From Pirellulaceae bacterium (GTDB taxonomy: Bacteria; Planctomycetota; Planctomycetia; Pirellulales; Pirellulaceae), in contig JAQWSU010000050.1 in NCBI GenBank assembly GCA_029243025.1, positions 28,925 through 92,924 of the forward strand: a stretch of 64,000 nt of DNA, read 5' to 3'. Below are positions 12,697 to 44,198 of this stretch, in pieces. Position numbers and translations under genes: made by a program. The notes under the pieces are model-generated. The model did no database searches, was not told the origin of the DNA, and saw nothing but the letters and a program-made list of their open reading frames with translations. The number at the start of each line of letters is the position of its first letter. Position 1 is the stretch's first letter.

Positions 12697-15600
12697 ATGG
12701 CCATTACCAGGTATTCCATCGATCGTCGATCTTTGCTACCGACACGAGGTTCGCTGACCTTTTGGATCGGTTTGCAATTCTTGGGGTTTGCCATTCTGGG
12801 CTGTAGTAACTCAGAACCCCGGCAATCTTCTCAACCGCCCACGGGGTTAGGATCGGTATCGGAGCAGCGCACGGATAAAGCTTTGAGTCCGGATGAAGAG
12901 CTGGGCCATCCAAGCTCCCAACTGGTGACGGCACCTGGCATGGAGCAACACAAATTCATAGCTCCCTTGGCCGACGCCTACTCTCGTATCGATCCGATAC
13001 GAGACGGTTGGGATAGCGAAGCCTTGGGAGCGAAAGCCGGGCAGCAACTCGTACGTTTCGGCCGGATGCTGCAAGCTGAAACGGCACCAGCTGAGCCCGA
13101 GCTCGAACGAATCATTTCTTCAACCTTTTCAGCGCAGAACTTGTTTCAGTCTCAGGGGATCGCTGTGTATGGCGACGAAACGTTGCGGATCAATCGAGTT
13201 GACGTGGGTCCACAGCCTTCTTCGTCAGCAGTAGGCGTTCGCCGATTCCAGGAATTGCGTGACTCTTTCCGTACTCGATTTAATCCTGTAGCAGCCAGCG
13301 AACTCAAATTCAAAGTGGTCCGTGTCAATCTTTCCGATGAAACGGCAAATACTGAGGTTTATTTCCATGCAGACGGAAACTCCGGAGAGGGTCTCACTGA
13401 GCTTTCAGCCGTCTGGACCGTCAGTTGGCAATCGATCCAGAACGAACTGAAAATCAATTCAGTCACCGTGGATCAACAAGAGAACGTGACTCATCCAAAC
13501 AGCCAGCAAACGCGTTTCGCGGATTGCACAGCTTCGGTTTTAGGGGAGAATGCTTCCTACCAGGAGCAGCTCTTGTACGGCACGGATCATTGGCGTAGTC
13601 GTTTCTCAAGGAGTCTAGGGCTTGATGTCGTTGCAAACCATGGACTTGCCATCGGCGATGTCAACGGCGACGGGTTGGACGATCTCTATTTATGCCAACA
13701 GGGAGGGTTACCTAATCGGCTGTACATTCAACAGGCTGACGGGCGATTGATCGATCGTTCGCTGAAGAGCGGGACCGACTGGTTGGATTTTTGTGCCAGC
13801 GCATTGTTGATTGATTTAGATAATGATGGCGACCGAGACCTGGTCGTCGGTGGAGAGTCTCGAATTATGCTGATGGAAAATGACGGTCGCGGTCATTTTT
13901 CGTTGCGCAAGGCGGTGCAAACACTCGCACAGACCTTCTCTTTAACCGCCGCTGACTTCGATCTGGACGGCGATCTTGATCTTTTTTGTTGTGGCTACAA
14001 TCCGCTGGGTGATCGAGCACAACGGGGTGCGATGGGGGAACCCGTCCCGTACCATGACGCTCAAAATGGCGGCAGGAACATGCTGCTGAAAAACAACTCG
14101 AACTGGGAATTCGCCAACGTCACAACCGAGGTCGGGCTGGATCAAAACAACAATCGATTTAGCTTCGCAGCCTCCTGGGAAGACTATGACAACGACGGCG
14201 ATAGCGATCTTTACGTTGCCAATGACTATGGTCGAAACAATCTCTATCAAAACAACCAGGGCACATTCCGAGATGTCGCTGGCGAACTGGGCGTCGAGGA
14301 CATGTCGGCAGGCATGTCCGTTAGCTGGGCAGATTTCAATCGTGACGGCTGGATGGATTTCTATGTGAGCAACATGTTTTCTGCTGCCGGCAATCGCATC
14401 ACTTTTCAACGTCAGTTCCGTTCAGCCGAAGCCAGCCACCTCAAGGAGCAGTATCAACGACACGCCCGAGGCAACTCACTCTTCCAAGCCGATGGCAAGG
14501 GTGGGTTTGCCGATGTAAGTGTCCCGGCCGGAGTTACCATGGGACGTTGGGCATGGGGAAGTCGTTTTATCGATTTCAATAATGATGGATGGCAGGATAT
14601 TCTGATTGCCAACGGTTTTATTACCACGGCCGACACCGGAGACTTGTGAAGCGTTTACTGGCGACAAGTTGTGTCGCAATCGCCTGCTGAATTGAGCCCC
14701 GCTTCGTCCTTCGTTCGTTATAAGCAGGGTTGGAGGGCATTGAACCGTCTCTTGCATGAGGACAAATCGTTTAGTGGGCATGAGAAGAATTGTGGCTTCC
14801 TGAATCTTGGAAACGGTCAGTTTGCTTCGGTCAGCTCGGTGAGTGGGCTGGACCTTGACGATGATAGCCGCGCGATTGCAATTTGTGATTGGGATTTTGA
14901 CGGTCGGTTAGATTTCTGGATGACAGCGCGGACAGCTCCTCGCTTGCGATTGATGCGCAATCGTGAGAAGCGATCGGGTGGTTTTGTCTCACTGAAACTG
15001 GAAGGGAATGGTAAAGATTCTAATCGAGATGCAGTTGGGGCTCGTGTCGAAGTCATCCTGCGAAACCATGAGCAGGATAAACGTTTGATTCGGACCGTCC
15101 ACGCGGGTGACGCCTTCTTGTCGCAATCGAGCCCTTGGCTTCATTTTGGCTTGGGAGCGGAGACCGAAATTGAGAAGGTCATCGTGCAATGGCCAACCCG
15201 ATCGGAAGCGAGTCGTGCGCAAACGGTTAGCGGTGTGCAATCCAACGGATTCTATTTGGTGCGGCAAGGTGAGCAGGTGGCAATTCCGTGGCAGCCACCT
15301 GCCTCCCGAATTCAGCTTGAGCCGAGTGCTCCGGTTTTCCCTGAACCGGAAAATTCGAAGCGAATTGTCTTGCCGGCCCGGTTGCCGTTGCCAGCCATCA
15401 AAACGTTATCGGGTTCAACGGAGCCGGTTTCTTGGAAGCAGCCTTTGTTGATTAATGTTTGGTCCGCTACTTGTCCTGTTTGTGTTGCGGAGCTGGAGGA
15501 ATGGTCCGGAAAAGCAAAGGAATTTCAAAATCACGGTTTGGAAGTTCTACTGCTTAATGCCGACGCTCACGACCAACAGGCAAAGGTTCAGCTCCTTATC

Positions 15601-16722
15601 GATCAGCTTGGGACAGCGTTTTCGTCGGCGACTGCCACCGCTGAAACCGTCCAAGCACTCGATTTTTTTCAACGTGCGATGTTGGATCGCTGGCAGCCTT
15701 TGCCTGTGCCGTGCAGCTTCTTACTAGATCGTTCCGGCCAGGTTGTGGTGATTTACAAAGGTGCGGTGCCAACCGAGCAATTGTGGGATGACCTGGCGTT
15801 GCTGGAGGCTAGTCCTGAGCAACTCCGCACGGCTGCTGTGCCATTCACGGGGCAGTGGTTGCGGTCTGTCCCTGCCGCGCAGCCGACTCTGGTCTCGACA
15901 CAAATGGTGGATCATGGAGCCGTGACGGATGCGATCGCTTATCTAGAGAAATTTTTAGAGGCAAATCCAGAAAGTGGACAGCTTGCACAGCTCCATTTTA
16001 TTCGTGGCATCCTACTGAAGTCACAACGGCGTTTTCCTGAGGCGTTGGAATCACTTCGATTAGCCGTTGAGGAAAACCCCGCTGATTTGCCGGCGCACAT
16101 TGAGTTGGCAACGATGTTTGAGCAAGCTCGTCGCCCCTCAGAGGCCCAAAAGGAATGGGTTGCTGCCTACAAAATCGATTCGGCGAATCGACAAGCCCAG
16201 CTTGGTTTGATCACCAACCTGCTGCTGCAAAAAAGGTTTCAGCCGGCTGCCGAGTTAGCGAAACGCGTGTTGTCAAAGCAACCCAGCGATGTCATGGTGC
16301 AATTTCGTTTGGCAACCGCTTATCGCAATCTGCGAAAATGGCCTGAGGCGATCGCAGCTTATCGTCGTACGATCGAACTTGAGCCAAACATGTTGCTGGC
16401 CGCCAATAATCTTGCCTGGATTCTCGCAACTCATCCAGACGATTCGCTTCGCGAAGGAGCCGAATCTCGCCGATTGGCAGAGCGAATTTGCCAACTGACT
16501 GAGTTTGAGGAGCCGGAGTTTTTGGATACGCTGTCCGTCGCTTATGCCGAAAACGGCGACTTTCAGCAAGCAGCTCGAATCGCTCGTAAGGCTGCTGCCA
16601 TCTTGGACCGACGCGGTGTTGCTTCGCCCGAACGGTTGCAGCCGTTGTTGGATCGCATCAACGGCTTTGATGACCAGAAACCGTATCGAGAGACTTCTGA
16701 CAGGTCCCCGCCAAATCCCTAA
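12697..16722 (+). CDS. Putative selenoprotein A: FG-GAP / ASPIC-UnbV / thioredoxin / TPR lipoprotein with in-frame UGA
   Basis: Read through the TGA at 14647-14649 this is one 1341-residue protein; without recoding it would be two adjacent genes in the same frame. An N-terminal lipobox (FAILGC36) predicts a lipoprotein. FG-GAP/VCBS repeats (about 310-645: DVNGDGLDDLYL, DLDNDGDRDLVV, DYDNDGDSDLYVAND) end in ANGFITTADTGDL. Then come Sec651 and SVYWRQVVSQ, Cys699 in SGHEKNCGFLN, and an ASPIC-UnbV domain (about 770-835). A thioredoxin-like domain has CPVC at 926-929, and TPR repeats cover about 1070-1320. Sequence conservation across the TGA in four paralogues and a SECIS-like hairpin support Sec insertion. 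The terminal stop is TAA. It probably works outside the inner membrane; its reaction is unknown. Confidence 0.85.
14647..14677 (+). promoter_or_regulatory. UGA (Sec651) plus SECIS-like hairpin of gene A
   Basis: TGA at 14647-14649; 12 nt later GCGAC (14661-14665) pairs with GTCGC (14673-14677) around the loop AAGTTGT. The stem can also be drawn as 6 bp with loop AGTTG. Loop spacing from the UGA is within a nucleotide or so of E. coli fdhF. The loop deviates from the AGGUC seen in the three paralogues (AAGUU), so this is the least canonical of the four. Confidence 0.7.
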
Positions 16723-18985: not shown

Positions 18986-19015
18986 GCAGTGCGAACTCTT
19001 GGGTCTTGTCTGCTA

Positions 19016-22000
19016 TCACGACGTTTGAGTTATGACGATCTTGCCTTCATCGATAGCCGGCTGATGATCACTCTGGGTGCCGTTCGGCCAGCGTACCGTA
19101 ATCCGCTTGATTTGTTTTCCGGGCGGGATTCCAAAGAACAGGTCCGAGGTCGATTGAGATAGGTAACCACCACCCGCACGCACTTCGTCTGTCTGTTGGG
19201 ATCCATCTGATATTTCCAGCGTGACGCGTGCGCCAATGGCAGTCGGGTTGCCTGGCTTACCCGCTAATCGAACGCGGACCGAGCGATTTTCAGTTAAAAA
19301 GCCATTGTTGTTGTGGAAGGCCAGCGTGGGGCCATTGTTGATCGTGGTGGCAAAATCAGCCCAGGCATCGTCATTTAAATCGCAGACGCTTAAACCTTTT
19401 GCATCGGCCGATACGGCCAGGCCACTTTCCTTTGGCCAGACTTCGCTAAATCCTCCCTGGCCATCCCCGTACAGCAGCACGCTCATTCCTCCAGCCATCT
19501 TCCCGGTCTCTCGTTGTGGATGGTAGAAGTTTTGCACGAGGTAGAGATCAGCGTTGCCATCTCCATTGACTTCCGTTGTGACGACGCCAAATGCTGGTGA
19601 GATTTGGGCGAGTTTTGGCAAGGGCTTGATCTCGAATTGTCCGTTTCCATCGTTGATTAGAAGTGCGGATTCCAACCAGTTTGCTTCAAATTTTTCTGCC
19701 GCATCCAAGCCGGTATCGGAATAAATGTCAGTCAGCGATGCGAGGGCAAAATCGTGATAGGTGCCAAATTTTTCTCGAACAAAGGGCATCGCATTTTGTG
19801 AGCAACTCTTGCCTCGAACAGGTAGCAGGCCTTGGTCGGCAACTTTGGCTTCGACAATGTGGGGCACTGTTTCGTCACCAAAGGTGCCATAATAGATCCG
19901 CGATGGATGGTCCGCGCTGGGATGATACTTGGTGTTGAGACCAAAGTTGGTCGCCACGTAGTCGATGTCGCCGTCATTGTCGAAGTCACGTCCAGCGATG
20001 CCGTTCCACCAGCCCAGGTGGTTTGCCAATCCCGATTGTTCGGTTGATTCGGTAAGTTTTCCGGCCTGGTTTAAAAAGGTGCGTACAGGTCCCCACTCAG
20101 TTGTCACCAGCAAGTCGACCCATCCGTCGGAATTGATGTCGGACCACAAGGCACTGGTCACCATTCCGCTTGCCTTCAATTGGGGAGCTGACTGTTGCGT
20201 CGCGTCCACAAATCGCGGTTCCGAGTCCGACTTCATCTGATTTTCAAGTAGCATGCTCCCGGGGCTTAGCGGGTAAGCTCCCGGAATGACCCGACCGCCT
20301 ACGAATAGATCGAGATCTCCATCACGATCAAAGTCAGCCGCTGCGGCGACACTGCCGCTGAAAGGATTGATGTCCGCTAGTGCAGTTTGATGGTGGGAGA
20401 ATTCACCGTTGCCATCGTTTAAGTACAAGCGATCTCGAAGTTGTTCCAAGTTGTCGCCTGCTTCGACACCGCCACTCACCACATACAAATCCAAGTCTCC
20501 GTCGCCGTCTGCATCGAAAAACAGCGGGGCAAATTCTTCGCTGCCGGCAAGCTGGTCGCCCGTCAACGGTTTTGCATCGAGACCGGATTCTCCTCGTAAA
20601 TGGATGGTTGGTGCTTGGTCGGCCGCGGCACTGACATAGACGTCATCGCGTTCGTCACCGTTGACGTCTGCTATGGCAAGACCTGGCCCCAATTGTGAAA
20701 GTTTATTCGGCAATAGCGGTTGGTCGGAGAAATCATCGTAAGGTGTTTCGGTGTGGCCGATCGTTTGCAGTTCGTTAACGTAGCCAAAGACGAGTGGTTT
20801 TTGATCAAGTTGACGGGCGGAGGCCGCGGGATCTTCTTCGATGACGTAGTGCTTGCCGGCCGCCAGATTTGTCAGTTCTTGAACCTGCCCATTGGGCCAT
20901 TCCACTTGCACACGATCGACTTGATCGGAGTTGCCTAAACCAAAATGTACGATGGGCTGGTTGCTGGACATGAAACCGGTCATCGGATTCAATACGCGGA
21001 CCTGTTTTGATTGTCCGTGCTCGATCCGCACCTTGGCTCCGATACCAAAACGATTGTTTTGTTTGCCTTTCAGGGCAAAAGTGATTCGGTTTTGATTGGT
21101 GGAGTCATTGCGATAGACGTGAACCGGCTCTGCCAGGTTGGTCACGATCAGATCCAAATCTCCGTCCTGATCAAGATCCCCGTAAGCTGCCGAGTAGCTC
21201 ATGCCGTGGTGGTCGAGACCCCAACTTTGGCCACTCGGTTTGAACTTGTAGTGTCCCGAATTTTGAAACGCTAGATTTTTGTCTCGCTGTTGCGGTTCGT
21301 CTTTAACCAATTGCCACTCTTCGCGACCGACCAGATTTGCCTGATTGAGTCCTCGGTCTGCATTGGTCATGTCGGTTGTCATGCCGTTTGTGATGAAGAC
21401 ATCATTCCAGCCGTCATTGTCAAAGTCCGCCAGCTTAACCGCCCATGACCAGTCAGAGCTGGCAAGTCCGCTGAGATGCGCCATCTCCAAAAAACGTCCC
21501 ACTCCCGCATTTAGGAAGACAGCGTTTCGCATGAGTTGTCGCGGATTCGAATGATCCATGAAGTGTTGGTTGGCCGACATATCACCCATGGTAATTTTTT
21601 GCCGGTAGTGAGTTGTCGCCGACATGTCCAAAACCATCAGATCGGGCATGCCATCGTTGTTGAGATCCGCACTGTCGGATCCCATTGAGAACCACGTCGT
21701 ATGAGGCACGACATTTTGAATCACGTCACTGAACGTTCCATTGCCATTGTTGCGATATAAGTGGTCCGGATCGTCGAAGTCGTTCGCGATATAGATGTCC
21801 ATTCGGCCGTCGAGATCGTAGTCGTACCAAGTTGCCGATAGGCCTTTGCCGATCGCGTTCAGGCCAGCTGCTTCGGAGACATCTCGATAGTTTCCTTGAC
21901 CGTCGTTTTCAAATAAACGATTGGGGCGTCCTGAAGTCTTGACCAGAAATTGGTTGGGACCTTGTTTTACCAAGTGATAGTAACGCTCGTATTCGGGTAG

Positions 22001-22792
22001 CAGTTGTGGAACGCCGTCAACTTCTTTACTGATCTTGCCTGTGGGTAAGCCACCGGCACGATAAAGCCGATTGGTCAGAACGAGGTAATCCAGGTCACCG
22101 TCATTGTCGTAGTCGCAGAAGTGTGCCATCACGCTTGCATCTGCCAACGCTGCGTTTCGCTTTTCTGCTTCGTCGACAAAAATGCCGGTACCATCGTTAA
22201 TGTACAGTTGATTTGGGGAGTCATAGTTGCAGACGTATAGGTCGAGATCGCCGTCTCCGTCAACATCCGCAAAAGCCGAACCGGCACTCCAGCTTCCTGC
22301 CGAGCTAACGCCGGACTTGTCGGTGATGTCTTCGAATTGCAGCTTCGACACTTGTCGATAGAGTCGGTTGGAGTCTGGACCATTTGTTAGATAGATGTCG
22401 GTTAGCCCATCTCCGTCGATGTCACCAATAGCAACGCCCCCCGATGCAAAGCCACTAATGTAAAGGCGGCTGAGCGGGTGATCCTTGTCGATGCGATTGA
22501 TATAATTGATCCCGGTTTGTTCCGGGGGGATTTTTGAGAACAGGGTCTCTTTGCTCTCAGGATGGGCCGTACTGGATTTCCCGGCGCTGGGAGGTAAGGA
22601 TCTGTCTTGCTCGCGCTTGGGCGGATCCTCGGCTTGACTGACCTTGTCTGACGCCTTGGCGTCGTGATTCTCGGTTCCTGCTGGCGATTGGCTGGGACGA
22701 CCACATGAAACGGTCGTCAGCAACAATAAGCCTACGAACAGCAAACTCAAGCAGCTTACAACCGGAGAAAATCGTGACAACCGATGTAGCAC
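19016..22792 (-). CDS. Large FG-GAP/VCBS lipoprotein with two ASPIC-UnbV domains
   Basis: 1258 residues from GTG 22792, chosen because it gives a normal lipoprotein signal (FVGLLLLTTVSC30); the frame is open to a TTG at 22879, which would add 29 residues before it. The body has many FG-GAP calcium-binding loops (DIDGDGLTDIYL, DVDGDGDLDLYVCN, DYDLDGRMDIYIAND, DQDGDLDLIVTN, DADGDGDLDLYV). There are two UnbV modules: one mid-protein (GIGAKVRIEHG ... VEWPNGQV) and one at the C terminus (AIGARVTLEI ... VRWPNGTQ). It is related to genes A-D but has no in-frame TGA, no thioredoxin or TPR part, and shows RDKNLAFQN where they have NCxFLN. Planctomycetes carry many such proteins; their role is not established. 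It lies downstream of a terminated PEP-CTERM gene. Confidence 0.88.
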   Translation of the reverse strand: MLHRLSRFSPVVSCLSLLFVGLLLLTTVSCGRPSQSPAGTENHDAKASDKVSQAEDPPKREQDRSLPPSAGKSSTAHPESKETLFSKIPPEQTGINYINRIDKDHPLSRLYISGFASGGVAIGDIDGDGLTDIYLTNGPDSNRLYRQVSKLQFEDITDKSGVSSAGSWSAGSAFADVDGDGDLDLYVCNYDSPNQLYINDGTGIFVDEAEKRNAALADASVMAHFCDYDNDGDLDYLVLTNRLYRAGGLPTGKISKEVDGVPQLLPEYERYYHLVKQGPNQFLVKTSGRPNRLFENDGQGNYRDVSEAAGLNAIGKGLSATWYDYDLDGRMDIYIANDFDDPDHLYRNNGNGTFSDVIQNVVPHTTWFSMGSDSADLNNDGMPDLMVLDMSATTHYRQKITMGDMSANQHFMDHSNPRQLMRNAVFLNAGVGRFLEMAHLSGLASSDWSWAVKLADFDNDGWNDVFITNGMTTDMTNADRGLNQANLVGREEWQLVKDEPQQRDKNLAFQNSGHYKFKPSGQSWGLDHHGMSYSAAYGDLDQDGDLDLIVTNLAEPVHVYRNDSTNQNRITFALKGKQNNRFGIGAKVRIEHGQSKQVRVLNPMTGFMSSNQPIVHFGLGNSDQVDRVQVEWPNGQVQELTNLAAGKHYVIEEDPAASARQLDQKPLVFGYVNELQTIGHTETPYDDFSDQPLLPNKLSQLGPGLAIADVNGDERDDVYVSAAADQAPTIHLRGESGLDAKPLTGDQLAGSEEFAPLFFDADGDGDLDLYVVSGGVEAGDNLEQLRDRLYLNDGNGEFSHHQTALADINPFSGSVAAAADFDRDGDLDLFVGGRVIPGAYPLSPGSMLLENQMKSDSEPRFVDATQQSAPQLKASGMVTSALWSDINSDGWVDLLVTTEWGPVRTFLNQAGKLTESTEQSGLANHLGWWNGIAGRDFDNDGDIDYVATNFGLNTKYHPSADHPSRIYYGTFGDETVPHIVEAKVADQGLLPVRGKSCSQNAMPFVREKFGTYHDFALASLTDIYSDTGLDAAEKFEANWLESALLINDGNGQFEIKPLPKLAQISPAFGVVTTEVNGDGNADLYLVQNFYHPQRETGKMAGGMSVLLYGDGQGGFSEVWPKESGLAVSADAKGLSVCDLNDDAWADFATTINNGPTLAFHNNNGFLTENRSVRVRLAGKPGNPTAIGARVTLEISDGSQQTDEVRAGGGYLSQSTSDLFFGIPPGKQIKRITVRWPNGTQSDHQPAIDEGKIVITQTS

Positions 22793-23010
22793 GGCGATAC
22801 TCGTTGAAGAGGGGAAAGGCGGGGCAAAAAGGACGCGCAGGAGCGAACGCTTATGCTTGATTTTAGCCCGAAATCTCAATTGGGGCCATTCTTGTTAGGA
22901 GGGCTGGATGGGAATAACTGACCGATTGCTGGCCTTTTCCCGAATTGTTGGGGTTGCAGATGGCAAGTTGCCTAGCGATTCGTTTGAATGTGTCGATCAG
23001 GACACTTAAT

Positions 23011-25152: not shown

Positions 25153-25162
25153 ATTGATAAAC

Positions 25163-26951: not shown

Positions 26952-29900
26952 TCAGGTCAGGAGGAATTCCACGCCATCGTTTTTTTCAGCCGGGACGATG
27001 GGCTTGGTCTCGTTCCAATTTTCGAAGATCTGGTCTCGGGCTTCCAGCAATATTCGTTGGGGCTTGCGATCGAGTGAATCTGCGAAATCGATTTGTGGGA
27101 TTTTTGTTTTTTCCTGATCGGTGCGTTGGAGCAGCTGGCTGCCGATTGGCAAGTCGTTTGCCGTGAGTGACACGTTTGCTTTGGCGGCGGCGGAGTAGTG
27201 GCCAGCTTGAAAGGCGGTCACGATGTCGCTACTGGTGAAATCATCATCGCCATCCCAGTCGCCCTCATCCCAGGTTGAGTTGTTGGGGGTATCGTCCTCG
27301 AATTCACCTGCGGCGAAAACTTGGACCAGATCGCTCGAGTTGAATTTGCCATCCCGATTCGCGTCGCCAGGTAGATCAACAAAGTCGGTGGGAGCTCCAG
27401 GGGAACCACCGATAAGTCGGCTGGGACGCCAGCCTGCCGACGTATTCCAGTGGTCTGGATTCGCTGCTAGGTCGGTAGCGACCAAGGAGCGGCCGTTTCC
27501 ATCGGTCTCGGGGAACCAGCTGTCCAGATAGGTGAACTGATGAATAGTTTGTTCGCCCACGGTCAGCAGAATTTGCTCCTGGCGATTGCTTAGGCCGCCA
27601 CTCCAGGATCCTGCGACCCAGGGTTCCGAGCCATAGCGTGTCCGAAACGCGTCCTGGTCTTCTACGACGACCAGACGCTCCCCAGCGGCTAATGAAGGCT
27701 GGTCCAATTTAGCAAAGCTGAATTCAACTCCCTGATTGTTGCCTTCGCGTTCAACGCGGCGCAGATGTACGGAGTTTAAGTCGATCGCTTGGTTTCCAAT
27801 GTTGACCAGTTCAATGAACTCGAATTGATCTGCGTCAGCATAGCCGGCTGCAAGCTCCGCTTCTGAGGGATCGGCTGGATGATAGTGGATTTCGCTGATG
27901 CGTAGGTTGTCAGGGCTGGCTGGAACGGTGTCAACGCGGAAGGCGGCTTCGCTTAAGGCGGACCATTGCTCAGCGTCGAGCAGCCGCGTTTTGAGCACTG
28001 TGTTGGCAGGGAGCGTCAACGGTTGGTCGGTGAAAACACGGGCTTCAGGATTCAGGGCTCCGCCCGCTAAGCGAGGGTCGGAACCGTCGGTTGTGTAATA
28101 AACAATGCCCTCTTCCGCGGTGATGGTGATGCGGTCGTCACTGCCAATGTCACCACCGTGTTGCGATTGTCCATTGACGGAGAATTCAGGTGCATCGATG
28201 GAAGGGTAGACACCTGCTTTCCGCAGTTGTGAAATGACCGTTGCCGTGCGGTCCGTTCCCGTTTCGGGCGCGAAGCGATTTAACATCCATTCGATCGAGC
28301 TTTCCCAGACGGCTGGCGTGTACGGCCCACTGTGTCCACGACGACCCCAGATTGCCGTTTCGGCGATCACTGGCAGCCGGACTTCATCGGCCAAAGCCTC
28401 TATGTCTTCGCGCAATCGATCGCTGGTGAGCATGCCGTTATTGAAAAACAAACGGTGTGCACGATCGGCCATCAACATCAGGAACTCGTCGTGTTGTTTC
28501 ATTCCGCCCCGAGCGTTCCATAAATTGCCGGGGCCTCCGCGTGTGATCACATTTGCGTTGGCGGTTGTACGGAGCACGAGATCGCTATCCCAGCCGAAAA
28601 AGATGAATCCGTCACCGTTCAGACGCGGACGAGCGGCCGCCCAGTTTTGCGAGTGATTCCAATCCCAGTCATTGCCCGCATAGAATTGCAGCAGCATGTA
28701 ATCCGCGTAATTTTCGACGTCTAAGAATTCTTGGACCCGTTCGTAATCGTCAATCACCTCGGAACTTTGCAACGCCCGCCAAGCAACGTTGTCTCCATCG
28801 ATCGGCGAACCCGCGTTGAGCGCATCGTAATCTTTTTCCTCGCCCCCCAGATAGGATGCCATGAAGGCGGCGTTCGGTCGTTCCATCAAGTGATGCAGGC
28901 CCCAGTATTCGCCGTTGATGTAGACCTGAACGTATCGCCCGTGGGGCGCTAAATGGCCCATTTCTAGCTGGCGATCGAACGTCCAGCGATTGCGGGTATA
29001 GTTGCCTTTGCCACCGGCTGGGTGAGTCCAAAACCAATTGTCGTGGGAGCCCGATCGAAGCAGCAATTGGTTGAATTCATTAACGGCATCGTCACCAAAC
29101 ATGTCGTAGTTTAGTTTCGAATCACCGTAGATTGATTTGAAACTCAATCGCATGTTTTTCTTCGGTGAGTTGAGACTGTGTCCACCATATTGTTCGATGC
29201 CCGCATCAATTTGAAATCCCTCCGTCCCGTCCGGATAGATCATCTCGACTGATACAGCGGACTCGCGTTGAGTAATACGACCTTCCGAAACTAAAGAAAT
29301 TGTTGGGATGGAGAGCAGCGAGTCTTTGAGCATTGGCCCCCATTGATCATCATCGGTGATCCTCGACCAGAGGTTCGATTGCGAGAGAATGTTTTCAATG
29401 AAGAAGTACGTTTGAGTGTCAATATTGGTCGGGACGTGATTCGTCTTGAAGGCAGCAGCTCGCAACGTGGTCGTTTTATCAATGGACAGCGTGACCGTGG
29501 GCGGTGTTTCAGAATCGGTCGATTCGACGCGATTGCCCTCCTCCAAGGTCGGCTCTTTTCCGTCGATCGTATAGACCAAAGTCGCTCCCGGAGTTGTGGT
29601 CGAAACAATGACTTCGAAAGATTCATCAAAGTAACCGCGGCCCACACTGAAGCGTGTATCAGCAACGATATCCAGCAAGCCACCCCGATTTGCTTGGCCG
29701 GGTGTTGGGTCATCGAAATAACGTTGCTGACCTTTGATGGTCCCGAAAGACACGTCGGTGGCTTGTTGGCCGAAAGTTTCTGTGGTGACCTCGTCGATGA
29801 TCCCCTTGCTCCCTGTCGTGATCGCTAAGTAATCGCCATCGGAGTCGAGTGAGAAGTTTGCGTGCAACCGTCCCGTTTCATCCAGCCCCGGATCTCGGAT

Positions 29901-32105: not shown

Positions 32106-32276
32106 GATTTTATTCCGTGTGTCGCCATTCACCACCAATTATCACACAGCGTTAGCTCAGGATGCAGAAGCTGATTGTAGATGGCAGTCCGAAACGAAGC
32201 GAGGAGATTTATCGGAATGTACGGAACTGGTGTCAGGCTATCCATGGGAGAGCTGAGGCTGTATCTTCCGTAAGCC

Positions 32277-33344: not shown

Positions 33345-36300
33345 TCAAGGACTCGAAATGGAAAGAATTCTTGACAATTGTTGCCAGCGTGGATGAGTCA
33401 GAAACATTTTGGGGGTCGCTTCGACGTAGCTGCGGCCTTGCTCAAGATGGCCGTGTTTTGCGAGTTCTTCCACGAATTCAAAGAGATTTCGTCGGCGAGG
33501 AGGCATGATCCAATGTCCGGGGAATGGCAGGCTGGCGGCCCGCCAAGCAGCCGTCGTCTTGGCTGCCGACAGCTTGCCCACATCTTGGACGAGTTGCTCG
33601 ACGGAAACCGGGCCTCGATAAATAGCGATCACTCGTCCCTGTCGATCGAGCAAAAAGCTCGAGGGAACGGGCAGCGGGGCGTGGGATTCAAAAATAGTGT
33701 CATTTAGCAGTTGAAGTTTAAAAAGCAGCTCGGCATCGGCTTGGCCGGCTCTGAATGGGAAGTTCATCTTTTTGAGCAATTGTTGACTCTGGTGAGACTG
33801 ACCATCCTGCTGCGCACCTGAGGAGAGAAGATCGTCGACATTCAACGCGACGATGTCGATCCGTAAGGCGCGTAATGCTTGGCTCTGCTGACTGAATTCC
33901 TCGAGTTCTCGAATGCAAGGTTGGCACCAAGCGGCCCAAAGATTCAGCAAAGTTAAGCGGTCTTGCGGTTCCACCAGGTCGGCAAGTTTTCCCGAGGACG
34001 ATTGGTAATGATTGGCGGGTAAGCGAATCATTGAGAAGCTCATCGCTTCTGAATCACCCTGATTGGCGATTGGCTTCACGGGGTCGGAGTCGAGCAGTTT
34101 GCGCGCAGAGGTCGCAATCGGATGGGGGGCAGGGTCTCCTTCGATGAACAGCAGCGTCCGATCCACTTCGGTGACTTGGAACGTTTGCTGTTTTCCTAAT
34201 GGCCAGGTGACTTCGACTCGATCGATGGATGTTGCGTCACCGAGACCGATGTGCAGCCGTTTGCTTGATTGAGCGAGAAAACCGTCGCCGGCCCGTAGGG
34301 TTCGCGAAATGGGAGTGGCCGTTTGATCGGTGAAGACTCGAACACGGGCTCCGATTCCATCTCGATTTGATTGGACCCCTTGCAGGCAGATGGTTAAGAA
34401 ATGATTCGTGGTCTGCATTTGATTCAGCAAGAATCTTAGTTGCGGACTGTTGCGGTTGGAAATCCAGACATCCAAGTCGCCGTCTGAGTCCCAATCGACT
34501 AAAGCGGCGGCGCGACCATCATCTGCCCAATCAAAACCACTGATCGATGAGACGTTGGCAAAGCCTTGGGTTCCCGTGTTTAAGAAGGCACAATGTGGCT
34601 CATTCCCACTAAAAGAGCGGCCCTCTCGTACAATCGAGAGAAATTGTGCGGCGGCGGTTCCTTCCGGATTGCTATTGCTAGTGCCCACCGATAAATTGCC
34701 GCGCGACCCGACCTGTCGCCAAAAGAAACTTCACAAGTCACCCGGGTCATGAGTCGTGATATAACCATTCGCGACGAGCAGGTCTTCCCAGCCGTCATTG
34801 TTAATGTCGCAGAACAATGATGACCAGGCCCATCGTCCCATTTCTACGCCAGCCAATGATCCTGTTTCCTCAAAGGAAGTACCGATATTTTGAAACAGTG
34901 AGTTTCCCTTGGCGAACCGTCGATAAAGTTGTTTGCGTTGCGGGCTGGCGTTGGGCAGAAAGCCGCTTTGAGGTGTGATGCGATTGCCCGCCGACGAAAA
35001 CATGTTGCCGACATAGAGATCCATCTGGCCGTCTCGATTGTAGTCCCCCCAAGAAACGGACATGCCTGAGCCAAAGTCGATTAGATTTTGCTCCGCTGCC
35101 ACTTCGGCAAATTGTTGACCGTCATTGCGATAGAGACAGTTTGCCCCGTAATCGTTCGCGACGTAAAGATCTTGATCACCGTCGTTGTCGTAATCCTCCC
35201 AGGAAGCAGCAAGGCTATGGCGTTGATTGTGGGTGTCGAGGCCTACCTCGGTTGTCACATCTTGGAAGTTCCAGTCGCCATTTGCAGAGATGTTATTTTG
35301 TAAGAGGTGGTTTGCGCCGCCGTCATTCGCGTTGTGATATACGAAAGCTGGCAAGCCTTGTTGGGAGCGAGATGCCTGCGATGCATAATCGACCAATTGA
35401 TAAAGATCCAGATCTCCATCGTTGTCATAGTCGACGGCCGAAATTCCTTGTAAATCGATGTCTGGCAGTTTCACAAGCTGTCGCATGCGGAATTTTAGAT
35501 CCGCGTTTTCGTAAAGGCAGATGCCCATCATCGTTGCGATGGCAGCGTCTTGGTCACCATCATTGTCAAGATCGACGAATACGGCACTCGAAGTGCGGTC
35601 GAGAAGGTTCAAACCGTATTCGGCAGAGCGTTCCCATGCCGTTCCGTCTTGCTGTTGTAAAAACAGCCGGTTCGGCAGACCCCCGGGTTGGCAAACGTAC
35701 AAGTCATCGAGTCCGTCGTCATTGATGTCGACGATCGAGAGGCCGTGTTTCGAGAAATATTCCATGCCGTGAGCTGTTTCGATCCGTGTTAGCCAATATT
35801 GAAGTCCATGAATCAACTGTTGTTGGAAGCTGTCCGTTTCTCCGATTACCGCCAACGTCTGATCCTTAAACCACGCTGGGCCCGATCGCTGAGTTTCTTC
35901 CAGGTTGATCAATCTTGCGGAAACTAAGCGGGGCAGGTTTGCATCATTGCTGAGCCATTGATATTCCCAGTGGGTTAATCTTTGCCACGAATGCTGCGGT
36001 GTTTGGGTGGATGCTTCCACGACAACTTCCGTTGAAACGGCATGATTGCCGAATTGAACGGTAATGATCTTTGGTTTGATGTGAGTTGCCGGTGCTGGAC
36101 CATTTGCGAGAAGGTTCAGGAACTTTGTAATCGCATCGCTGCCCTGCAGCTCGGTTGGAGTTTGTAGATCCGCGATTCGCAGTACGCTCGTTTGCGCGTT
36201 AGAGAAAATCTTTCGCGGAAGGGTCGAATCGAACGTCAGCGAAAATGTTTCTGCGAAACACTCAGAGGATGGCAGATTGGAAGTCGTATGCTTTAAGGCT

Positions 36301-36575
36301 TCGCTCACCTTCGTTAGAGTCTGACTTGCGCGGTCGGCAAATTGTTCCGTTGGCCAATTTGTGCTGCTCGCCGCAAGCCGGCTGGAATCGGTTTGAAATC
36401 GCGATCCCGATAAGGTCGGCCTCGTGTTCTCATTCGGTGACGTCTTGTCATCAGTTAATGAGGATGGCTGCTCCTGCAATTCGCTCGAGGGCCACCAACG
36501 GGCACTGATCCACAAGGAACCACCCAGGCCAAGTACGATCGCGACGACGAAACAAATTCGAACTTTGTGCGTCAT
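33345..36575 (-). CDS. Putative selenoprotein B: FG-GAP / ASPIC-UnbV / thioredoxin protein with in-frame UGA
   Basis: 1076 residues when the TGA at 34731-34733 is read as Sec615; otherwise two in-frame neighbours. The N terminus is a membrane anchor (ICFVVAIVLGLGGSLWISA) without a lipobox Cys. FG-GAP loops (DINDDGLDDLYV, DLDNDGDQDAAIA, DYDNDGDLDLYQL, DYDNDGDQDLYVAND, DINNDGWEDLLVANG) end in YITTHDPGDL. Sec and SFFWRQVGS follow, then Cys662 in SGNEPHCAFLN, an ASPIC-UnbV domain, and a thioredoxin-like domain with CQPC at 884-887. Compared with A and D, the C-terminal TPR block is missing: the protein ends about 190 residues after CQPC. The terminal stop is also TGA, so UGA has two meanings in this gene. 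Divergent from gene C, with 183-216 bp between. Confidence 0.85.
34703..34733 (-). promoter_or_regulatory. UGA (Sec615) plus SECIS-like hairpin of gene B
   Basis: TGA at 34731-34733 (minus). Twelve nt downstream GCGAC pairs with GTCGC (plus coordinates 34715-34719 with 34703-34707) around the 7-nt loop AGGUCGG. The AGGUC core is identical to the fdhF SECIS loop and sits at the same distance from the UGA, within about 1 nt. Confidence 0.75.
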
Positions 36576-36791
36576 ACGGAAAACGTTGCGTGAAAAAGGT
36601 TCTGTCGAGTTTCATTGATCTGAATGTTGCGAGTGATTCGTCCTTGCCTCGGAACTCATCGCAACTTGACTTTATCTTACCGTCTCTTGTGCGCCTGGGG
36701 GCTCTTTAGACGTAATTCGTTGATTCCATGAGTTGCGACTGCTTGACGGTAGGTTAAAGTGAGGTGTCCCGAGGAATTCGATATCAACTTG
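36576..36791. promoter_or_regulatory. Divergent promoter region of genes B and C
   Basis: About 216 bp (183 bp if gene C starts at GTG 36759) separate the starts of two putative selenoprotein genes facing away from each other, so their promoters must lie here or overlap. GAGGA at 36771-36775 may serve gene C. I see no defined operator. Confidence 0.45.
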
Positions 36792-39700
36792 ATGCGTATG
36801 AAATTCATGTTCCTTTCTCGTAAACGTGCACGATACACCTTAGCCGTGATGAGCGCGGTCGGACTGGTTGTTTTTATCGGCCTGGCCTGGGGCTATTTTC
36901 GAGGGCAAATTAGAAAGGATCACCCGGGCATTCGCTCCGAGGGCATTCGTTCCGAGGGGCACTCACGGTTCTATTTAAAACCTCTCGACGGTCAGCTCAC
37001 TAACGATCTGCGAATTCAACGAGCGGACGCGAGCGAAGGCGACTGGATCAGCGAGCAAGAAACTGCAGCTCTCATGGAAAAGTTGGATCGATTCAAAGCG
37101 TGCGTATTGGATCGTAGCCGCACTGTTGCCGATTCAACGCTGCTTGCGCCCGATTTTCAGGGGCAATTGCTGACTTCTACGAGATTGCATCTCGTCTACC
37201 ACGACAAAACGATGCGGATCTCTCACCTGAATTCAACGGATAAGGACGCGGATTTTACCAATTCAATTGAGCAACAGTTTGACTCATGGACGGATCCGAA
37301 TGCGAAGATCAGTCAGTGTTCCTTCAAGGTCATTCGGATTCGAGCGGTCGACGGACAGTTGCGAGCTCGTTTGCTGCTGCAGCTAGTTTCCAAGTCAGCC
37401 GGAACCATCCAACAAGATAATTTGATTTGTGATTCTGAGTGGGAGTCGATCGAAGCAGAACGCCGCTTGCGTCGCTTGGCTGTCGTGAAGCTAGAACGCA
37501 TCGAGTTTGTTGCCAGTGGAAGGGGCCTCCTGGATGACGCAACAGCTGCCGTGTTGCCCCTAGGAAAGGCCGGGCGTGATCACGTCCTGCGAGGTATCGA
37601 CCATTGGAGCCAGCGTTTAACGGGAATTGACGATATGCATATGTACGGCCACCACGGTTTGGCGGTGGGCGATGTCAATAATGATCTTCTGGATGATGTT
37701 TATGTTTGCGATGCAGGTGGGTTGCCGAATCAACTTTATTTGCGCGGGGAAGGGGGTATCGCAAAGGCGGATGCCCAGCGGGCAGGTGTCGATTGGTTGG
37801 AGGCGTCGACGTGCGCACTTTTGATTGATCTGGATAATGATGGAGACCAAGATCTTGTTGTAGCAACTGTCGCGGCGCTCATCTTTGCAGCCAATGATGG
37901 GCAGGGACGGTTTCAAGTTCGTGCGGCGAAAACAGGTTTTCCCGAAGCGCATTCACTTTGTGCGGCTGATTATGACAACGATGGAGATCTTGATCTCTAC
38001 GTTTGTAATTATGGAGCGGCAGGCGGAAGAAGCGGTCAGCGAGGTTTTGAGGCGACGATACCCGTTCCCTATCACGATGCACAGAACGGAGGACGCAATA
38101 TCCTGTGGCAAAACCGTGGGCGTTTTCAGTTTCGCGATGTGACTCGCCAAGTCGGGCTCGAACAGAATAATCGCCGATGGACTTTCGCTGCGGCTTGGCA
38201 GGATTATGACGACGACGGTGACATGGACCTGTATGTGGCCAACGACTTTGGACGCAACAGTCTGTACCAGAATCAAATGGGAAAGTTTCGTGACGTGGCG
38301 GCTGCGTCGGGTGTTGAGGACATGGCAGCCGGAATGTCGGTTGCTTGGGGAGAATATAACGGAGATGGGCGCAGTGATCTGTATGTTGGAAACATGTTCT
38401 CCGCAGCAGGTTCTCGAGTGACCTATCAGCGAAGATTCGTTGATAGTCACTCAACAGCTGACACGGGGGGCGTGCAGCGAATGGCTCGTGGGAATACGCT
38501 CTTTGCGGGTGATTCCGAAGGTCGATTTGTTGATGTAAGCCTGGCTGCCGGTGTCAACATGGGCCGTTGGTCGTGGAGCTCAAAATTTGCGGATCTCAAT
38601 AACGATGGGTGGGAAGACCTGATTGTTGCAAATGGATACTTCACGAATCAACGCACGAACGACTTGTGAAGTTTTTTTTGGCGGCAGGTCGTGTCACCTG
38701 CACCTCCATCCATGGAAGATACGCGTCGTCTTCAACGGTATCGGAAATCCTGGCATGAGATCATGGAGATGGTACGTTCTGGAGCGTCCTGGAGTGGTCG
38801 GGAAAAAAATTGCGTCTTTCTCAATTGTCAGGCAGGCGCAGGGCAGGATAAGACAGTGCAATTTGCCGATATATCGGCCGTCAGCGGCATGGGGTTTCCT
38901 GATGATGCACGCTCGATGGGAGTCTTGGATTGGGATCAGGATGGAGATCTCGATGTGTGGATTCGTAATCGAACGGCGCCACGTCTACGCGTGATGTTGA
39001 ATCGAACCGATCAGCTTATGCCAAATCGGAAAACGATTGCAGTCAAATTGCGAGGTGTAGCCTGCAATCGAGATGCCATTGGTGCCCGTGTCGAGATGGT
39101 TTCACCTCCTGGTCGACGGCAGTTACGTTCGGTAACCGCCGGAGATGGCTTCATTTCGCAATCAAGCAAATGGTTGCATTTTGCTGCGGATCAGGAGGTG
39201 TCATCGGTCACGGTCCACTGGCCGGGTGGAAATCGGGAAATAATCCACGGCCTGGATGTGGCGGGTCGTTATCTTGTTCAGCAAGGGGCAGGCGAGGCCC
39301 GTCGAGTGGAAGATCTTCCCAAGCTGAAAATCGCTCCGAAGGTTACAGCGGTTCCAGGGGTGACCGACTCGGCACGAATCGTGTTACCTGGGCGAATTCC
39401 GTTGCCTGATTTAACGCTGGTGCCAGATTCCACGTCCTTGCCTAGCACGCTGGGAACGCGCCCAACTTTAGTTGTTTTTTGGACTCGATCCTGTGCCAGT
39501 TGTCGAAGTGAATTGGCGAACTTAGCCGCGCACCAGCAGGCATTTGATCGTCAAGGTTTGGCCGTTTTGACGATTTGTTTGGATGGACTGGGGACGAGTG
39601 ACTCGGTTGCTGCACGAGCTGCTGATGATTCAGTCAGTTTGCCATCGATAAGAATTCCCTTTGCAGGCGCGACGACAACAGCTGCGTCGATGCAAAAGCT

Positions 39701-40307
39701 GCAGCATTTCCAAAATTGTCTTTTCGACAGTTATCCCAAATTGGTTGTGCCGTTTAGCTTGCTGGTGGATAGCGATAAAAAAGTAATTGCCTTGTATCGT
39801 GGGGCATTCTCTGCTGAAGTCTTACTTGACGACTTTGAATTATTCTCGATGTCTGATCAACAACTCCGCGATGCGGCCGTGCCGTTCGCGGGGTCTTGGT
39901 TTACGAAACCAGCGACCCAGGTGGATTTGGCCGAATATATGGGAAGACGGATGATCTCACGCGATGTTGATGAAGGGCTACGCTATTATCAGATTGCGTT
40001 GGAGAGTTCGCAGGACGAGGCCAAACAAAAGCAGTTGAGACAGGTTCTCGTCACCACTCAACTTCGCTTGGCGCGTTCTGCGGGTAGGGCGAACGAAATG
40101 GTAAGGTCCGCACGATATTTTCAGGCAGCACTGCAAGTTGCTCCAGATTCAAATGATGTGCATCGTGACTATGCTGTTTTCTTGGCTCGGAGTGGTGAGT
40201 TCGAAAAAGCTGAATCCCATCTGAGGGAAGCCTTGAGGATTCGTCCCGAAGATCCCGTGGCAAGGAAAAATTTGCAGCTGTTGCTGAAACGCAAAAAACG
40301 GGACTAA
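36792..40307 (+). CDS. Putative selenoprotein C: FG-GAP / ASPIC-UnbV / thioredoxin / short TPR protein with in-frame UGA
   Basis: 1171 residues from ATG 36792, chosen because it precedes the N-terminal anchor (YTLAVMSAVGLVVFIGLAWGY); the frame is open to GTG 36759. The TGA at 38667-38669 is read as Sec626. FG-GAP loops (DVNNDLLDDVYV, DLDNDGDQDLVVA, DYDNDGDLDLYV, DYDDDGDMDLYVAND, DLNNDGWEDLIVANG) end in YFTNQRTNDL. Sec and SFFWRQVVS follow, then Cys674 in SGREKNCVFLN, an ASPIC-UnbV domain (AIGARVEMV ... VHWPGGN), and a thioredoxin-like domain with CASC at 901-904. A short TPR-like tail (about 1040-1165) closes the protein. Stop TAA. It converges with gene D with only 15 bp between the stops. 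Confidence 0.85.
38667..38701 (+). promoter_or_regulatory. UGA (Sec626) plus SECIS-like hairpin of gene C
   Basis: TGA at 38667-38669. In the register shared with the paralogues, GCGGC (38681-38685) faces GTCAC (38693-38697) around the loop AGGUCGU, with one mismatch and one G-U. A perfect alternative 6-bp stem pairs GCAGGT (38684-38689) with ACCTGC (38696-38701), loop CGTGTC. Either presents a GU-containing loop about 18-24 nt from the UGA. Confidence 0.68.
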
Positions 40308-40322
40308 GCTGGCTGTTGCCAA

Positions 40323-43300
40323 TCAAGGACTGCGGTGAAAGGGCTTTGACTGTTGGTAAAGTTCCCGACGCGCCTTGATTTTCTTGGCGAGCGAGGATTG
40401 ACCGCGCTCGAGGCAAATGGCCAAAGCCCGCGTGGAGACCTGCAAGGCTTTATCGAAGTTTCCCTGCTCGGCGTAAGCGGCTGCTAAGGTATCTAAGAAA
40501 TCCGAGTCATTGCGATCCGTAAGCTCAACGGATTGCTTGGCAAGCTCGACAGCTCGCTGGCCATCACGGTAAGCCGGTGCCGGATGAGTCGCAAGTAGCC
40601 AAGCGAGATTGTTGATGGCACGCAAGCTGGTCGGGTTCCGTTTCAACGCTAACTCATAGAGTTTAATTGCCGAGTCAGGTCGTCCTTCCTGTTCACGGAT
40701 TTGCCCCAAAGCCGTTTCGACTCCGTCAAAATTTGGATCGATTCGGACTGCGACGCGAAAATGCTCTTGGGCTTTTTGATGTCCGCCTCGATGATAAAAA
40801 GCAGTTCCCAGACGAACAATCGCTGGTAGTAGTTGCCGCTTGGGGATGTGCTGGAGGCGTCTGACATAGTCATCGGCTTCCAGCAAAAATCCGGCTGAGA
40901 TTAAGCCGTCAAGGATCGGGATCAGCGGCATTTGAAGCTGGGGTTCGAGCCATTTTCCAGCGAAGAGTGCGTTTTTGGAACGAAGTTGGTCTTGATCCCA
41001 TTCGAGCGACTGCAGGTCCGTCAGGATGCGGTCGACAGAAACCGGACCTCGGTACCAAGCAAGGAGTCGTCCTTGGCCATCAATCAAGGCACTTGTTGGA
41101 ATCGGTAATGGCAGGTGCAAGTCAAACATGTGGTTGTTTAGGAGTTGCAGCTTTTCGATCAGGCGAGCATCTGCGGTGCCTGATCGGAATGGAAAGTCAA
41201 TTGCTGCGAGTAGCTCACCAGGCTCCCGGGAAGCGGTCGCTGGATTAAGGCTGTCGACATTTAAAGCCACAACGTCGAGACCGACGTTGGCGAAAAGTTG
41301 CTGATTCCTCGACAGTTCTTCAAGTTCGATCAAGCACGGTTTGCACCAGGATGCCCATAGATTGAGTAACACGGCTTGACCGGAGCCAGGTTGAAATACA
41401 TCTGCGGCTTCACTGGACGAGGTGCGATACGGAAGTCTTGGCACAGGCAAACGGGAGAGGGTCCGTACGCTTGCCTGGTCGGATGCCTCCGTGGCCTCGC
41501 TGAGTGAATCGGGTGAATCCATCCCTTGCGGCAAGGAAATGGGATGGACCGAGACGATGCTTGCCTTGGATTCGCCCTGTCGTAACAGGTAATGACGATT
41601 GGGACTCACATCGGAATATTGATCGGTCGTTCCGTCTGGCCAATGCACGAGTACCTGTTTGATTTGTGCATCTTTTCCGAGTCCAAAGTGCAGCCATTTG
41701 CTTGATTGAGCCAGATATCCATCGCCGGCACTCAAATTTCGAATCATACTCGGTGCTCTGGCTTCAACGCATTGGATCTCGACTTTCGCTCCAATGCCAT
41801 CTCGGTTGCACGTCGTGCCTTCCAGTCGGAAGGCGACGAAACGATTGGAAGAATGAAGGCCGTTTTGCAGATAGCGAATTTGGGGGCCGTTGCGGTTGAT
41901 GACCCATAAATCCAGGTCTCCGTCCTGGTCCCAGTCGACTCGCCCAATTGCACGACCATCATCTTCCCAATTCAGTTGAGCGGCGGCAGATACATCGGCG
42001 AACTGTTCGCTACCAGTGTTGAGAAAACAGCAGTTGGCTTCGTGCCCACTGAAAGATCTACCCTGGCGAATGAAACGTAGCAACGTTCCCGAATTTTCCG
42101 TGTTGCTGACGCCTTCACCGAGTGACACGGGCGCGCCACCCCCTTCTTGCGACAGGACCTGTCGCCAATAAAAGCTTCACAAGTCACCGGTGTCTTCCGT
42201 CGTCATATAACCATTGGCAACCAGTAGGTCCTCCCATCCATCATTATTGAGATCAATAAACAATGAACTCCAAGCCCATCTGCCACGTTCCACACCCGCG
42301 ACTTTTCCAACTTCTCGAAATGTCTTATTTTGCTGATTTAAGAACAGTGAGTTTCCTTTCGCGAGTCGCTGGTATTCACCGCGGACCCCCTCTCCCTCGT
42401 CAGGACGAAAGCTCGGTTGAGTGGTGACTCGCTGCCCGGCAGATGAAAACATGTTGCCGACATACAAGTCAGGCCAACCATCCCGATTGAAATCGCCCCA
42501 GCTTACCGACATGCCGGACCCGATGTCGGTCACTCCTGCTTGTTCCGCGATGTCGACAAACAGACCCTTTTGATTCTCGTACAGATAGTTGCGACCAAAG
42601 TCGTTGGCGATGTAGAGATCTTGGTCGCCATCCCTATCAAAGTCTTCCCAAGCCGCGGCTAAGCTGAATCGATCTCCGCCGTTCTCCAAGCCAGTAGCCT
42701 TCGTAACGTCCTTGAAAGTCCAGTTGCCCGCCGCAATCGTGTTGTGGAATAATCGATTAAGACCACCGCCCCTGCCATCCCGATAGAGGAATTGCTGTTT
42801 TGTGTCGGGCATCGACGCGCGGTAGACGCAAGCGAAAATGTCGAGATAGCCGTCATTGTCGTAGTCAACGGTCGATAGGGATTGGACGTCGTAATCAGCA
42901 GGCAGTTGTTGTCGTTTTGTAAAATGTCCGCTCGAGTCATTTTCCATTAACACGATTCCAACGGGCATGCCCAGTACAAGGTCTTGGTCCCCGTCGTTGT
43001 CCAGATCACAAAACAGTGCCGCGCTTGTTTGGTCAAGCCAGTCGATGCCAGCAGATTCGGATTGGTCCGTGGCTGTGCCATCGGCTTGTCGTATAAAAAG
43101 CTTGTTGGGTAGGCCGGGAGGCTGGCATAAAAATAGATCGTCCAGGCCGTCACCATTCGCATCGCCGATGGCAAGGCCATTGCGAACCGAGGTGTCGAAG
43201 CGTTGAACTCGCTCCACCCGCTGTAACCAGTGATGATGGCCGTAGGACAATTGGTGACGATAGGAAGGGTTCTTTCCCAAGACAGCGCTCGTTTGGTCCG

Positions 43301-44198
43301 TAAACCATTTGCCGCCTTCGATTGTGATTTCGGATTCTTCGTATGCCGTAACGCGAATGGACATCAATTTTGGAGAGTCTACCGCGTGGGTCCAGTGGCA
43401 AAGCCAGGTCGCATTCATTTGGCGACTGGTGTCGCCTTCCTGGTTGGTGAGTTCGACCAGAACCGTTGTTTCCACTTGTTCCTTCGACAAGCGTATGCCA
43501 ATGATCTTAAAGTGAGCTTCAACGGCTTGATTTGTCGACTCGGTTGCTGAAGGCGACGTCCCACCTAATTGGCGGATTGCTGATCGTAGACCCTTCACTC
43601 CTCGCAGGTCCTCACCACCCTCGGAGATTACACCCCGACGTACCACCAGCATGGCATCCTGATAGACCTCATTCAGCTTCAAGGGACGCAATGGGACTGC
43701 TCGAAAGTCGGGGGTGATGAGAGAACTGATTTCGGTCGAAAACTTAGCATCGTTTGACAACAATGATTTGTCCTGCAGTGCACTAGCCAGTTTTTTTAGC
43801 TGGCTTGCTGCTGATTCTGCGAACGCTTCCGATTCCCAGCCAGCCTCTTGCGCCGACAGAGTGGCTTGGTCCTTCGCGAGACGCTGAGCGGTCAGAGAAG
43901 TTCTAATAGATGATGGCTCAGTTGCTTCGCTGCTACCATTGGAACTGCCATCATTTGAAAGGATGGGCAGTTCGGTGAAAAGCTCGGTTTCCGATAGATT
44001 TGGTTCCGGTGAAGTTGCTTCTTCCGGCTGCTGCTCAGCCAGTTCACTGGCACGAATCCGTGGGGGCGGAACCGGAAGCACGGTTGGCTCCGGCGAGACA
44101 GATGCAGACGGACCACAAGCGGTTGACAACGCTAAAACAGAAGCCAGCAACAAACTGCCAATCTTACGCTGGACGGGTTGGAGCGGAATTGTGTGCAT
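40323..44198 (-). CDS. Putative selenoprotein D: FG-GAP / ASPIC-UnbV / thioredoxin / TPR lipoprotein with in-frame UGA
   Basis: 1291 residues with the TGA at 42177-42179 read as Sec674. A lipobox (LALSTAC28) predicts a lipoprotein. FG-GAP loops (DANGDGLDDLFL, DLDNDGDQDLVL, DYDNDGYLDIFAC, DFDRDGDQDLYIAND, DLNNDGWEDLLVANG) lead to YMTTEDTGDL. Sec and SFYWRQVLSQ follow, then Cys723 in SGHEANCCFLN, ASPIC-UnbV (GIGAKVEIQ ... VHWPDGT), and a thioredoxin-like domain with CKPC at 952-955 (NLWASWCKPCLIELEEL). The C-terminal TPR block (NNLAWLLATHP, DTLAAAYAEQGNFDKALQ) is closely similar to that of gene A. The terminal stop is TGA, so an ordinary UGA stop and the internal UGA coexist in one message. Same domain plan as A. 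Confidence 0.87.
42149..42179 (-). promoter_or_regulatory. UGA (Sec674) plus SECIS-like hairpin of gene D
   Basis: TGA at 42177-42179 (minus). Twelve nt downstream lies GCGACAGGUCCUGUCGC (plus 42149-42165). Drawn with the family loop it is GCGAC-AGGUCCU-GUCGC; fully zipped it is a 7-bp perfect stem with loop GUC. Two U-A pairs extend the base across a bulged G. This is the strongest of the four elements. Confidence 0.78.

Follow-up and report, generated by a model that had tools for sequence, protein, structure and literature searches.

Relation to known selenoproteins

Bacterial selenoproteins with a bacterial selenocysteine insertion sequence (bSECIS) are recognised by an in-frame UGA, a hairpin with an early-loop G at 16-37 nt from it, and the selenocysteine (Sec) machinery SelA, SelB, SelC and SelD. 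These features are shared by the family described here, which is represented by four FG-GAP/UnbV genes, A to D, in a 64,000-nt stretch of a Pirellulaceae genome (GCA_029243025.1, contig JAQWSU010000050.1, positions 28,925 to 92,924; hereafter the window). An earlier note on this DNA had read the UGA in each gene as Sec and the neighbouring frames as one protein, a proposal now supported by the Sec machinery of the genome, the codon column in homologues, the hairpin and the co-occurrence of UGA with the machinery. Judged from these sequence comparisons, A to D and 20 further paralogues are very probably selenoproteins made in full length, and the SelA, SelB, SelC and SelD of the same genome likely carry out the Sec insertion. 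The family differs from known bacterial selenoproteins in that Sec would not belong to a thioredoxin-type motif but would begin a helix in a part resembling CRTAC1 (cartilage acidic protein 1), and in having 24 paralogues in one genome.

According to the part of PMC13188914 (May 2026) used here, a bSECIS has an apical loop of 3-9 nt with a G in its first two positions, an upper stem of 4-16 bp, a distance of 16-37 nt from the UGA and a minimum free energy (MFE) of at most -7.5; the largest bacterial selenoproteomes named there hold 57 and 63 genes in all. For Planctomycetes, the main text of PMC4807772 (2016) describes Sec machinery together with several selenoproteins, fdhA and fmdB among them; machinery and selenoproteins are features shared with the present genome. 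The names FG-GAP and UnbV do not occur in that main text, its supplementary tables S8 and S9 lying outside this comparison, and an FG-GAP/UnbV name is absent from the 119 prokaryotic selenoprotein families and subfamilies in Table 1 of PMC13188914. A word search of the accessible text of PMC12013277 (deep-Sep) gave no mention of FG-GAP, VCBS, UnbV or CRTAC1. Within the portion of the openly licensed literature covered, no report joins selenoprotein with UnbV or selenocysteine with VCBS, and those joining selenoprotein with FG-GAP are unrelated; nor was a link between CRTAC1 and Sec met in the literature examined. If the reading is true, this would be a further selenoprotein family, on a beta-propeller and ASPIC/UnbV scaffold that the 2026 table lacks, and one genome would hold 24 copies of it; in several bacterial phyla, what is now annotated as pairs of fragments would then be whole selenium proteins.

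Genes A to D and the in-frame UGA

All positions follow the numbering of the window, and the four genes were checked by frame translation with the UGA read through. Gene A (12697..16722, + strand) encodes 1341 residues if UGA is Sec, with the UGA at 14647..14649 (residue 651). Gene B (33345..36575, - strand; 1076 residues) has it at 34731..34733, the first codon base being 34733 (residue 615). For gene C (36792..40307, + strand; 1171 residues), where an alternative upstream GTG start at 36759 is possible, the UGA lies at 38667..38669 (residue 626), and for gene D (40323..44198, - strand; 1291 residues) at 42177..42179, with first codon base 42179 (residue 674). Each frame holds one internal stop, which is always TGA, in the context [GN]DL before and S[FV][FY]WRQV after; the coordinates, the TGA after GDL or NDL and the S-V/F-Y/F-W-R-Q-V continuation given in the earlier note all hold in the four frames.

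Identity to protein A is 37-39% for B, C and D, and FG-GAP repeats and UnbV_ASPIC score above the Pfam cut-offs in 4/4 proteins. The FG-GAP repeats of the propeller lie N-terminal of the UGA, and UnbV_ASPIC and an AhpC-TSA/redoxin domain lie C-terminal of it, while TPR matches are present in A, C and D and absent from B. The redoxin domain carries CxxC in A and B; that of A (C926-C929, 15472..15483, + strand), in a TlpA/ResA-like domain, is the proposed electron partner of Sec. By inspection, the N-termini are lipobox-like in A and D and include a hydrophobic segment in B and C, from which the products are likely exported and may be anchored at the outer face of the membrane or in the periplasm.

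Standard open reading frame (ORF) calling cuts all four loci at the UGA, as would be expected were it a real stop with two proteins made per locus, the second by downstream re-initiation, for which GTG, TTG or ATG codons are available 8-17 codons past the UGA. Against this, the peptide SFFWRQVV, which follows the UGA immediately and has no start codon ahead of it, is conserved, and sense homologues run through it unbroken; neither UAA nor UAG is listed at the codon, and the hairpin accompanies UGA and not sense codons; re-initiation is accordingly regarded as very improbable.

The hairpin downstream of the UGA

The earlier note placed a hairpin 12 nt after the UGA in A to D, and this is borne out: positions +12 to +17 pair with +23 to +28 in a stem of six pairs around a loop at +18 to +22. 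In gene A (14661..14677, + strand) the 6-bp stem has 6/6 pairs and the loop AGUUG; in gene B (34703..34719, - strand) and gene C (38681..38697, + strand) 5/6 pairs enclose GGUCG, and in gene D (42149..42165, - strand) 6/6 pairs enclose GGUCC. The two strands of the window together contain 2478 TGA triplets, those of A to D among them; at least five of the six pairs form at 94 (3.8%) and the full six at 11, and from this background the probability of four of four by chance is ~2e-6. The stem position and GGUC loop of the family hairpin match those of E. coli fdhF, the model case of a bSECIS selenoprotein. By the proposed mechanism, SelB would bind the GGUC-type apical loop and deliver Sec-tRNA to the UGA.

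For the wider family, 132 distinct TGA sites were gathered (24 from the genome itself, 79 from related loci and 29 from a motif survey), deduplicated by exact identity only and so inclusive of close relatives, and were compared with sequences whose codons had been redrawn synonymously with each locus's own codon usage. All six pairs are found in 119/132 sites, compared with 4.8 expected under recoding; the mean number of pairs is 5.84 vs 3.57, and the folding energy -9.8 vs -5.2 kcal/mol. Pair 15-25 covaries among four types (AU 54, GU 50, GC 18, CG 7), pair 17-23 is AU in 121, GC in 5 and GU in 2, pair 13-27 is CG in 123 and AU in 3, and the loop is GGUCG in 117/132. When the bSECIS values of PMC13188914 were applied by script, the loop was found after a 17-nt spacing, with an early-loop G in 132/132 sites and the MFE value reached in 124/132. 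Rfam, applied to the window with its gathering thresholds, gave no match.

Eight distinct sense homologues, representing 10 places, served for comparison; the Acidobacteriota survey supplied all of them, by the motif that had also been used for UGA sites. In the fixed register none of the eight has six pairs, and their mean of 2.88 lies close to the 2.71 of shuffles; with the register left free, six pairs are reached at 123/132 TGA sites. The hairpin is thus fixed far beyond protein constraint and is absent in that register from sense homologues. Being family-wide and nearly invariant, it offers a ready signature for finding further members.

Sec machinery in the genome

The genome (8.35 Mb in 60 contigs, ~96% complete) contains all four components that the earlier note had proposed to look for. 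A tRNA-Sec with anticodon TCA (UCA) scores 64.7 bits against a cut-off of 47; ARAGORN finds no tRNA in the window, so selC lies elsewhere in the genome, where it was found. SelA (570 bits) is adjoined by SelB (365 bits), and SelD is present at 352 bits. The SelD gene (L013, G000:C60:108592-109518) has an internal TGA of its own in the context SCAG-UGA-AGKL, followed by a hairpin with, by inspection, the loop AGGUU, and SelD is predicted to be itself a selenoprotein. As SelD is among the selenoprotein families listed in the part of PMC13188914 consulted, it provides a positive control within the same genome.

A further possibility is that UGA is read as another amino acid, e.g. Trp or Ser, through code reassignment or near-cognate read-through. 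In sense homologues with WRQV the commonest residues at the column are Ser and Asp, so an ordinary residue would be tolerated there. However, B and D end in a genuine TGA stop, and hence UGA is not globally reassigned; A and C end in TAA, and the 22 other window ORFs examined end in TGA (8), TAA (7) and TAG (7). The dedicated tRNA-Sec(UCA) together with selA, selB and selD also stands against such decoding, which would leave the bSECIS-type hairpin without explanation, and we give it hardly any credence.

Insertion of Sec also fits the distribution of the machinery. In the phylum of this genome, selA occurs in 15/15 genomes with the TGA (11/15 with a listed score above cut-off; G170, G255, G276 and G281 with a listed E-value, 1e-125 or lower) and is over cut-off in 191/294 overall; the comparison of 15/15 with 176/279 others gives p 0.001 by Fisher's test, with kinship ignored. 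In Acidobacteriota it is over cut-off in 12/13 TGA genomes vs 2/8 sense genomes (p 0.003, kinship again ignored). The search of related genomes covered 45 of 75 UGA-bearing loci, one per genome, and in these 45 genomes selA is over cut-off in 37 and selB in 5 of the other 8. Genomes bearing the UGA nearly always have selA or selB.

Family size and the codon at the column

With a profile of the four A to D segments, 24 loci with exactly one TGA in an otherwise open frame are found in the genome, namely A to D and 20 more, and the TGA falls in the identical alignment column in 24/24. The four-gene family of the earlier note therefore stands as to its members and was an undercount as to its size. 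Public-genome relatives were taken as the best 80 of 473 confirmed loci, of which 47 are from Verrucomicrobiota, 21 from Planctomycetota, 8 from Acidobacteriota and 4 from others or unplaced. The column carries UGA in 75/80 of them, with 80 TGA sites in total, and 46 of these 75 loci belong to Verrucomicrobiota. Nine sense codons among the related loci are off-register propeller matches or weak relatives, such as the second L094 gene with Cys. In own paralogues and related loci alike, homologous sequence lies on both sides of the in-frame UGA, and downstream of it 137 to 845 codons follow without a stop, unless the available DNA ends first.

These data also bear on whether the loci are frame-broken pseudogenes or sequencing errors, for which the internal stop itself speaks and nothing else. 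As the same column is conserved in 24 own paralogues and, across many assemblies, in 75 related loci with 80 sites, with long open frames beyond it, this explanation is already refuted and its probability is negligible.

A DNA motif with the codon position left free was run over genomes of three phyla. In the genome's own phylum (294 genomes) it occurs in 15 genomes at 37 places, with TGA in 36/36 places listed. Among 297 Acidobacteriota genomes (the phylum of G334), 22 matched: 13 have TGA, 8 have sense codons (10 places; Ser, Gly, Gln, Ala, Asn) and one is an off-family match. In Verrucomicrobiota (the phylum of G296), G296 alone of 240 genomes matched, with TGA at 7/7 places; the exact motif is therefore patchy there despite the many UGA loci from this phylum. 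Over all surveys the listed family places comprise 56 UGA, 10 sense and 0 UAA/UAG, and neither TAA nor TAG appears at the codon among the places listed in any of the three phyla. An AGY codon after the UGA was considered as a diagnostic sign and rejected, as 8/8 sense homologues use AGY too.

Some observations count against Sec at this codon. No UGA is present at the column in 5/80 related loci (L087, L089, L090, L092, L093), and with a free register 1/8 sense homologues also reaches six pairs. Genomes G294 and G309 have neither selA nor selB over cut-off, and G331 has just a partial selB below it; assembly gaps could well explain all three. The earlier note had held that TGA kept in Sec-lacking genomes would speak against its proposal, and on this the UGA does track the machinery, with these three exceptions among 45 genomes. 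Taken with the evidence above, full-length translation with Sec remains very probable.

Two divergent members can be set apart. L172 of this genome (G000:C45:531445-532389; 169 bits) has the UGA in the context VDL-UGA-SNFWRTVV, and L023 holds a similar copy with VDL-UGA-SDLWRAVV; the two are possibly a separate subfamily. In both (own_L172 and L023+1680) the fixed register gives 1/6 pairs, and by inspection six pairs form when shifted by one base, with a 4-nt loop, in agreement with the free-register count. Two lower-scoring paralogue matches, L173 and L174, have a Cys codon at the column (DYCTTYWRHDIY type) in frames of ~800 residues and are without SFFWRQV.

Predicted structure and a possible redox role

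The predicted model of B comprises a CRTAC1-like propeller with the fold of PDB 9etn, the UGA residue being at the start of a helix, and a thioredoxin fold with CxxC, TlpA/ResA-like, at residues about 860-1000. Sec is thus predicted to sit at the first turn of a helix in the CRTAC1-like propeller, followed by ASPIC/UnbV and the TlpA/ResA-like CxxC domain. The 551-residue chain of 9etn aligns only to B residues 228-814, so CRTAC1 is without a counterpart of the thioredoxin-like domain. The CxxC thioredoxin fold is common to TlpA/ResA oxidoreductases (PDB 1jfu, 1su9); unlike them, it is here built into a larger protein, with its Cys retained and the Sec in another domain. No NCBIfam model (June 2026) is over cut-off for A to D, TlpA reaching 47.9 vs 230 bits at best; the domain is related to TlpA/ResA and is not a member by that cut-off.

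From sequence features of this kind the proteins are likely redox-active. The propeller might hold a ligand or oxidant with which Sec reacts, the Cys of an EKNC motif 48 residues on could often be the partner of Sec, and the TlpA/ResA-like CxxC domain may re-reduce it; these are the least certain steps of the mechanism. The CxxC domain is present in 105/120 Sec sequences vs 18/85 non-Sec, non-Cys sequences, and the EKNC Cys has a frequency of 0.81 in Sec sequences vs 0.11. Several results weigh against a redox role. Tested on 5 phylogenetically independent pairs, the link between Sec and CxxC does not reach significance, and co-loss of the two, strong in raw counts, was set aside, and the EKNC Cys is absent in 23/120 Sec sequences, which weakens an obligatory Sec-Cys pair. 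Furthermore, Cys occupies the column in just 8/93 aligned sense homologues, and the site tolerates non-redox residues.

For this alignment, 120/132 Sec sites were kept, those with short flanks being dropped, along with the 93/120 listed proteins that have the motif and enough flank; a wider tally of residues at the column in homologues also takes in long multi-copy proteins without WRQV (Ile, Met and Leu rows). The 120 proteins were listed from 6979 matches, and databases built on gene calling should lack the full-length forms with UGA. Cys homologues do exist at the Sec column, in the 8/93 and the two low-scoring own-genome matches; other residues are commoner, and those seen in homologues include Ser, Asp, Asn, Gly, Ala, Glu and His. 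The homologue check proposed in the earlier note is therefore answered with a qualification: the column holds UGA or sense codons and no listed UAA/UAG, with Cys uncommon and mostly other residues in its place. With so few Cys, this is not the usual Cys/Sec active-site column, and the departure from the usual pattern is a natural experiment on the purpose of Sec.

The same residues favour a reading in which Sec is inserted for a structural role or as a metal ligand and not for thiol-type redox, hence its replacement by Ser, Asp and Asn. On a tree built by a quick method from 50/120 Sec rows and 60/93 sense rows, switches between Sec and other states number no fewer than 5 and as many as 13, which also suits this reading. 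Opposed to it are the enrichments of the CxxC domain and of the EKNC Cys, and it seems implausible that 24 costly Sec sites would be kept for structure; we consider a non-redox Sec unlikely, though well short of negligible. We lean towards Sec being ancestral in a very large exported family of CRTAC1-like proteins in Planctomycetota, Verrucomicrobiota and Acidobacteriota. Repeated losses would have replaced it, in most cases by Ser, Asp or Asn and not by Cys, and would have taken the thiol partner domain as well; single genomes would hold up to two dozen members, and much of the selenoproteome of these phyla would be uncounted since annotation splits these genes at the UGA.

Other genes of the window

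A sense-codon relative lies at 19016-22879 (- strand); it has 1287 residues with seven FG-GAP_3 stretches, two UnbV_ASPIC domains and no in-frame UGA. Several further frames of ~1250-1330 residues elsewhere in the genome likewise have two or more matches of this kind. At 26952-32138 (- strand) is a frame of 1728 residues with CotH kinase, lamin tail and cadherin-like repeats. Adjoining PSCyt1/DUF1549/DUF1553 and DUF1501 genes occupy 47746-52461 (+ strand), and their domain names include planctomycete cytochrome C.

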